DNA of 38,327 nt from Ghiorsea sp. (lineage in GTDB: Bacteria > Pseudomonadota > Zetaproteobacteria > Mariprofundales > Mariprofundaceae), in assembly GCA_027055255.1 (NCBI GenBank), contig JALUNK010000064.1, forward strand, positions 1 through 38,327, in the 5' to 3' direction. Position numbers and translations under genes: made by a program. The notes under the pieces are model-generated. The model was not told the DNA's origin, ran no database searches, and worked only from the letters and a program-made list of their open reading frames with translations. Positions 371-3,466 of the stretch are shown here, piece by piece. How positions within the stretch are numbered: position 1 is the stretch's first letter; each line of letters opens with the position of its first letter.

Positions 371-1486
371 TTGAGCACAGACATTCAATCACTTAAACCT
401 GACTTATCGCACCTTAAAGGCGTGCGCATCATTGCTGCGATGTCGGGTGGTGTGGATTCTTCTGTGGTGGCTGCATTGCTTAAAGAAGCGGGTGCAGATG
501 TGATTGGTGTGTTCTTGCATGTTTGGGACTACAACCGTGATGAAGTGTCAGGTCATGGCTCGTGCTGTTCGCTAGATGATGCTTATGATGCAAGGCGGGT
601 CTGCGACCAAATCGGCATTCCATTTTATAATATGGATATGCGCGAAAATTTTCGTGAAAATGTCATCAACCCATTCATTGAAGATTACGAAACAGGACGT
701 ACGCCCAACCCATGTGAGCGTTGCAATCGCTTTGTGAAATTCGGGGCATTGCTTGATGCTGCTGATGAATTGGAAGCTGCATATGTGGCGACTGGGCATT
801 ATGTGCAACGCAATGATGATGAGATGGGCGTGCATATCTATCGTGGTAACGACCAAATCAAAGACCAAAGCTATTTCCTTGCTACCACCAACAAAGAGCA
901 AGTCGCTCGCATCTTGTTTCCTGTAGGTCATTTGCAAAAAGATGGTACGCGCATTTTAGCCCGTCATTATGATTTGATGACGGCTGAAAAGCATGAAAGC
1001 CAAGACATCTGCTTTATTCCTGCTGGCAATCGTATTGCATTCTTGAAAAAAGAAGGTGCGGAAGCTGGGTTTCGCGCTGGCGATATTATGGATAGAGAGG
1101 GAACAATCCTTGGTCGCCATAAGGGCATTGCCCACTTCACACTGGGTCAACGTAAAGGTTTGGGGCTTCCTAACGGCCCTTGGCATGTTGTAGAGCTTGA
1201 TGGCACGACTGCGCGCGTGATTGTCGCCCCACCTGCTGATGCCTTGATTACGCACGTGAACGTGGCGGAAACCACGTGGCTGCGCGACATCAAAGAAGGC
1301 GAACAAGTCCTATCCAAAGTGCGTTATCAAATGCGTCCATCGCCATGCACCATCACACTTGATGGTGACAATACTTTACTTACCTTTGATGAACCTCAAA
1401 AACCCACTGCTCCAGGGCAAGTCGCTGCATTTTATGTTGGTGATGAACTTGTGGGTGGCGGTATTGTTTCAAGCATCATCAAATAA
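371..1486 (+). CDS. mnmA: tRNA-specific 2-thiouridylase MnmA
   Basis: MnmA transfers sulfur to U34 of the wobble position in tRNAs for Lys, Glu and Gln, using ATP to adenylate the base. The 371-residue product has the PP-loop SGGVDSS at residues 25-31, the NPCERCN segment with Cys118 and the SQDICFIP segment with Cys214. The two cysteines correspond to the catalytic pair of the E. coli enzyme. The middle contains GHYV and KDQSYFLA, both family hallmarks. The start is TTG, chosen because GGAG lies five bases upstream and the next ATG would fall inside the PP-loop. The last 53 codons plus downstream DNA are present again, diverged, at 2554-2949. The gene is intact and presumably functional. Confidence 0.95.
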   Translation: MSTDIQSLKPDLSHLKGVRIIAAMSGGVDSSVVAALLKEAGADVIGVFLHVWDYNRDEVSGHGSCCSLDDAYDARRVCDQIGIPFYNMDMRENFRENVINPFIEDYETGRTPNPCERCNRFVKFGALLDAADELEAAYVATGHYVQRNDDEMGVHIYRGNDQIKDQSYFLATTNKEQVARILFPVGHLQKDGTRILARHYDLMTAEKHESQDICFIPAGNRIAFLKKEGAEAGFRAGDIMDREGTILGRHKGIAHFTLGQRKGLGLPNGPWHVVELDGTTARVIVAPPADALITHVNVAETTWLRDIKEGEQVLSKVRYQMRPSPCTITLDGDNTLLTFDEPQKPTAPGQVAAFYVGDELVGGGIVSSIIK

Positions 1487-3334: not shown

Positions 3335-3362
3335 TAGTTCTCCCTCAGTATGAAATGAACAA

Positions 3363-3392
3363 AACATACCTGCTCAAGGGGGGGGGGGTCAA
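3363..3392 (-). promoter_or_regulatory. Predicted lipoprotein promoter with homopolymeric spacer
   Basis: On the - strand TTGACC (+ strand 3387-3392) and TATGTT (3363-3368) lie 18 bases apart, and nine of the 18 spacer bases are C from the homopolymer. The leader to the lipoprotein ATG would be about 20 bases. A change of one or two bases in the tract would move the spacer through 17-19 bases and alter promoter strength. Confidence 0.5.
3378..3388. repeat. G11 homopolymer tract (C11 on the - strand)
   Basis: Eleven consecutive G bases, unlike anything else in this AT-leaning window. The tract overlaps the predicted -35 box and spacer of the lipoprotein gene. Tracts of this length are prone to slipped-strand change, and also to sequencing error. 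Confidence 0.9.
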
Positions 3393-3421
3393 CTTAATAA
3401 AGGAGCCTGCTCAATAAAAGT

Positions 3422-3466
3422 TTCCTCAGAGCCTTTAGTCTGCGTCATAGACATAATAAAAATCAA
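3422..3466 (-). pseudogene. thrB: Decayed, internally deleted thrB remnant
   Basis: Positions 3422-3448 match 3705-3731 inside thrB at 24 of 27 bases (the codons for MTQTKDPEE). Positions 3452-3466 match 3959-3973 of thrB at 15 of 15 bases (the codons around IDFYY). The two pieces are adjacent here but about 220 bases apart in thrB, and join at a short shared ATGA(T/C)GC sequence, as expected from a deletion between microhomologies. In-frame stops show that it is not coding. Confidence 0.6.

Follow-up and report, generated by a model that had tools for sequence, protein, structure and literature searches.

The lipoprotein locus and its orthologues

The window, as the whole stretch of 38,327 nucleotides analysed here is called, is contig 64 of a 1.99-Mb Ghiorsea assembly that comprises 234 contigs and is 85% complete. 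Near one end it carries a short minus-strand gene for a lipoprotein, preceded by a Shine-Dalgarno sequence, two promoter-like hexamers and a long run of C between them (Table 1). Read on the minus strand, the order of these elements is AAG-TTGACC-CCCCCCCCCTTGAGCAGG-TATGTT-TTGTTCATTTCATACTGAGGGAGAACTA-ATG, with 16 nt separating TATGTT from GAGGGAG.

Table 1. Features upstream of and including the lipoprotein gene (positions in the window)
Feature	Position	Strand	Basis
C11 homopolymer, proposed slippage tract	3378..3388	- (G11 on + strand)	sequence
TTGACC, -35-like hexamer	3387..3392	-	sequence; the first two Cs of the tract are counted in the hexamer
Spacer, 18 nt, of which nine (the first nine) are C	3369..3386	-	sequence
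TATGTT, -10-like hexamer, 18 nt after TTGACC	3363..3368	-	sequence; class-wide -10 enrichment
Shine-Dalgarno GAGGGAG	3340..3346	-	sequence; GGGAG also before the ATG of the orthologue
Lipoprotein gene, 125 aa	2957..3334	-	lipobox MMTAC (MLNKVLKISIAASCLMMTAC); ATG 3334-3332
Short sequence similar to the 3' part of the adjacent APH-family gene (TATGACGCAGACTAAAGGCTCTGAGGAA)	3405..3450, approximate boundaries	-	sequence, alignment

An earlier note on this DNA had proposed a phase-variable promoter built from TTGACC, an 18-base spacer with nine Cs and TATGTT, and this arrangement was confirmed at 3392-3363. Its remark that C11 is the sole long G/C homopolymer also holds, as no other G or C run exceeds 6 nt in the window. 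Under a first-order Markov model, runs of at least 11 are expected 6e-5 times for G and 1.8e-3 times for C, or about 0.002 times in total. The length C11 is that of the assembly consensus. The two hexamers agree with the consensus at 9 of 12 positions, and 3 matches of this quality were found in the region against 2.5 expected from shuffles. This shuffle-level match in isolation counts against the locus, and the promoter reading therefore rests on comparative evidence.

The lipoprotein gene is present in 3 of the 16 genomes of the genus, in one of them as a fragment at a contig start (L007). The full orthologue (L008) encodes a protein that is 85% identical and lies in G015, which is Ca. Ghiorsea rimicarensis RB_MAG_00008 (CAMZLG010000032); the search assigned the window genome to that genus as well. 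Ca. Ghiorsea rimicarensis lives on the vent shrimp Rimicaris exoculata as an epibiont (PMC8042907). In both genomes the gene stands downstream of the same phosphotransferase-family (APH) gene, and in G015 the promoter directly follows the 3' part of that gene. The coding parts of the two loci align at 80-82%, whereas the intergenic DNA aligns poorly. The G015 promoter reads TTGACA-G-C11-ATT-TATACT with a 15-nt spacer. C11 is found in both full copies, which are only two in number, within diverged flanks. As judged from this alignment, the surrounding sequence has changed while the tract has kept its place between the hexamers. The lipoprotein family had no match in Pfam, NCBIfam, the PDB or plasmids, and an AlphaFold model built from three sequences was useless (pLDDT 29).

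Elsewhere on the same contig, the 3' end (1340-1486) of an mnmA-like gene (371-1486, plus strand) is repeated in degenerate form at 2560-2714. Between the two copies lies a pair of small minus-strand genes, judged by eye to be RelE/ParE-like (1933-2217) and Phd/YefM-like (2204-2485). The arrangement looks like the insertion of a toxin-antitoxin pair accompanied by a partial duplication.

Recurrence of the arrangement and its target genes

The combination of TTGAC and a C-tract is not confined to the window. The pattern TTGACN{0,8}C7+ occurs at about 24 distinct sites in the genus, counted among the matches listed, compared with 1 in the reversed control. A family-wide scan that also required a downstream ATG listed 29 matches against 2 in the control. 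When C9+ tracts were fetched from 16 assemblies, TTGAC was the commonest of the 1024 pentamers just upstream of them (13 of 57 tracts, 0.6 expected). The class excludes other C9+ tracts of the genus that stand in coding-like sequence, beside a dispersed repeat or within an inverted repeat. In a Pseudomonadota-wide search, TTGAC-C8-ATG matched in 12 of the 16 genomes of the genus and in about 1 in 8 of the other genomes of the phylum that were scanned, and many of the matches outside the genus stand in GC-rich, coding-like sequence.

Hexamers resembling a -10 element are enriched downstream of the tracts at spacers of 14-19 nt, with none of 2000 shuffles as good and a z of 7.8, a value that overstates independence because redundant orthologues are included. 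The hexamers were scored with an approximate sigma-70 matrix for E. coli. The apparent spacers of the class range from 13 to 22 nt; 15 and 16 are the commonest lengths, and a second group lies at 19. The canonical distance between -35 and -10 is 17, and the modal spacer of 15 counts against the reading of these sites as phase-variable sigma-70-type promoters. The tracts themselves run from C5 to C14, most of them C8-C11, and begin 0-7 nt after TTGAC.

The genes downstream of these sites are largely those of exported proteins. Among the 36 sites with a usable ORF, 28 are followed by a lipoprotein (17) or signal-peptide protein (11), as called by a simple heuristic, compared with 29 of 90 background ORFs. 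Pfam identified OMP beta-barrel, OmpA or Opacity domains in two of the targets and, with weak scores, invasin/filamin-like or ZU5 domains in others; most targets are orphans. Together with the lipobox of the window protein, this distribution agrees with the view of the earlier note that an envelope protein is a plausible target.

Tract length, base identity and the GCAAN6TGCC subclass

Differences in tract length were found at several loci other than that of the window. Contigs 10 and 24 of G005 share 5.5 kb at their ends with 97.9% identity, which represents either two strains or a duplication. For about 490 bp spanning the promoter of a beta-barrel gene, the two copies are identical except for CCCCC in place of CCCCCCCCC (C5/C9), between TTGACACTGTCTA and TATAATTCC. 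About 270 bp separate the C5 allele from a contig end, which makes a misassembly possible, although such errors do not usually take the form of a clean 4-base loss. Two loci that are nearly identical for 180 bp upstream, on contig C45 of G015 and contig C26 of G010, carry tracts of C9 and C8, respectively. A family of signal-peptide proteins (EEGRGS) has C9, C8, C6 or no tract, depending on the species, and three orthologues of a lipoprotein family have C9, C10 and C6. At the orthologous loci L039 and L070, three other bases make up for the difference between C8 and C11, and both spacers are 15 nt. The variation among relatives that the earlier note proposed to look for is present at other loci, and the window locus has the same length in both full copies.

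A difference of another kind separates the near-identical orthologous promoters L229 (G015, contig C62) and L233 (G010, contig C54), in which a 5-base block differs between TTGACT and the C-tract. The apparent spacers of these two promoters are 19 and 14, respectively.

Poly-G can occupy the place of poly-C. The G-for-C version of the search listed 11 matches, compared with a handful of control matches, and yielded fewer sites than poly-C, several of them showing the complete arrangement. In the genome of the window itself (contig C219), TTGACA and TATGTT flank 19 nt containing G8 before a gene for a secreted protein, and the orthologue in another genus has G9 in a spacer of 18. A further orthologous pair, in G038 and G044, carries G9 and G10. 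Poly-G at the same place, with orthologues of other lengths, suggests that tract length rather than base identity matters. An apparently dispensable base identity fits spacer length as the working variable.

In a subclass of promoters, a conserved element GCAAN6TGCC, in fuller form [A]GCAAC-TANNAT-GCC, follows the C-tract immediately (L048, L050, L060, L064, L104, L120, L133, L142, L144, L145 and others). Control of spacer length does not explain this element, and a regulator may also act there. Occurrences of GCAACTANNNTGCC without a C-tract are modestly above the reversed control, which indicates that the element is not a stand-alone signal. Read in reverse as TGGCAN6TTGC, it suggested a sigma-54 promoter on the opposite strand. 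This candidate was set aside because the G-tract would fall where the DNA must melt and because most targets lie on the C strand.

The subclass bears on an alternative in which the G:C tract serves as a fixed part of the promoter or as a binding site, either for a regulator or as a DNA-shape element, and its length variation is incidental. A role of this kind has reportedly been suggested for the poly-C of Neisseria opc. The conserved element behind the tract implies a protein-binding constraint beyond spacing, and both the concentration of tracts at C8-C11 and a modal spacer other than 17 would suit a fixed component. However, the full spread of tract lengths and of distances from TTGAC, the replacement of poly-C by poly-G, the lack of a tract in some orthologues of the same gene and the lack of a GCAAC element after the tract in the window make this alternative unlikely.

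A homopolymer that is neutral or due to chance, lying in non-coding DNA with an accidentally promoter-like context, would agree with the chance-level hexamer match and with the C9+ tracts that these genomes carry without promoter context. It was already disfavoured by the strong enrichment of TTGAC, -10 hexamers and secreted targets around the tracts, and the retention of the tract in a relative despite diverged flanks leaves it very improbable. Equally little weight can be given to a transcription start farther upstream, which would place the tract in a 5' leader where its length acts on mRNA structure or translation, since throughout the class -10-like hexamers come after the tract, at a sigma-70 distance from TTGAC, and the Shine-Dalgarno sequence of the window gene lies still farther downstream of its -10.

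A probable phase-variable promoter and its known counterparts

The window site is best read as a phase-variable, or graded, promoter of sigma-70 type and of the porA kind, one of a set in Ghiorsea and its relatives; a probability of about three in four is assigned to this reading. It is supported by conservation in the orthologue, by recurrence in the genus before genes of surface proteins and by length differences at other loci. From these features we infer the transcription start, slippage at the window locus and an effect of tract length on expression. RNA polymerase would recognise TTGAC(C) and TATGTT, and the C-tract would supply half of the intervening spacer. As the DNA is replicated, slipped-strand mispairing would add or remove Cs, and the spacer of 18 nt at C11 would become 17 at C10, the canonical value, or 19 at C12, altering promoter strength. 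A clonal population would then contain cells with differing amounts of the lipoprotein. Since the spacer is 18 at C11, the prediction for the allele in the window is a strength close to the optimum, not a clear on or off state. Comparable promoters in Ghiorsea and its relatives would drive genes for lipoproteins, outer-membrane beta-barrels and other secreted proteins.

Promoters of this layout are known from pathogens. In Neisseria meningitidis, porA has a poly-G between -10 and -35, and single-base changes in its length alter the spacing (van der Ende 1995, cited in PMC5084427 and described in PMC7864442). The window site shares with porA a G/C homopolymer in the -35/-10 spacer of a gene for an outer-membrane or envelope protein, a position supported by the hexamers and by the class-wide enrichment of TTGAC and -10 elements. 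Unlike porA, it concerns an unrelated gene in another bacterial class, carries poly-C on the coding strand and is known from its sequence. In Treponema pallidum, tp0126, which encodes an OmpW homologue, has a poly-G between -35 and -10, and transcription is best at a spacing of 17 (PMC7864442). The spacer homopolymer and the surface-protein target are common to both systems, whereas tp0126 belongs to another phylum and has had its variability and transcription measured. In opc of Neisseria meningitidis, a poly-C encompasses the -35 region and presumably influences the binding of a regulator (Sarkari 1994, cited and described in the same two articles, respectively). The window site resembles opc in that a surface-protein gene has a promoter with poly-C abutting or including the -35 region (TTGACCCC...), but TTGAC is intact here and conserved at the 5' edge of the tract. 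A promoter of the opc type, with poly-C replacing the -35, was rejected on account of this separate TTGAC.

The mechanism is known already from porA-like promoters and tp0126, while the host lineage and the breadth of the set appear new. A search of the open-access literature found no paper linking Zetaproteobacteria or Mariprofundus to phase variation or slipped-strand change, apart from one incidental co-mention, although such absence is unproven. Phase variation through homopolymer tracts has been studied mostly in host-adapted pathogens. It is somewhat more probable than not that Ghiorsea and related Zetaproteobacteria, including the vent-shrimp epibiont, possess a genus-wide group of promoters with homopolymer spacers, each switching its own surface protein independently of the others, with GCAAN6TGCC as an addition in one subclass. 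If true, this would be a contingency-locus system in chemolithoautotrophic iron oxidisers. Such a promoter set in deep-sea iron oxidisers suggests surface variation under pressure from phages, grazing or hosts in environmental chemolithotrophs.

Other poly-C tracts in the genus have different surroundings. A dispersed repeat (CTGTTATAGCTGCGCCAAGCAAAAGGTGGAAGAAG...), present in the window at about 2808-2850 and elsewhere in the genus, directly follows a C9 tract at L061 and L065. Tracts of C17 and C19 at L040 (G007, contig C9) and L086 (G011, contig C141) lie between the inverted repeats GGCCTGTCAATT and AATTGGCAGG(T/C)CC. These two loci, from two species, share a conserved hairpin whose loop is a long run of C, possibly another length-variable element.
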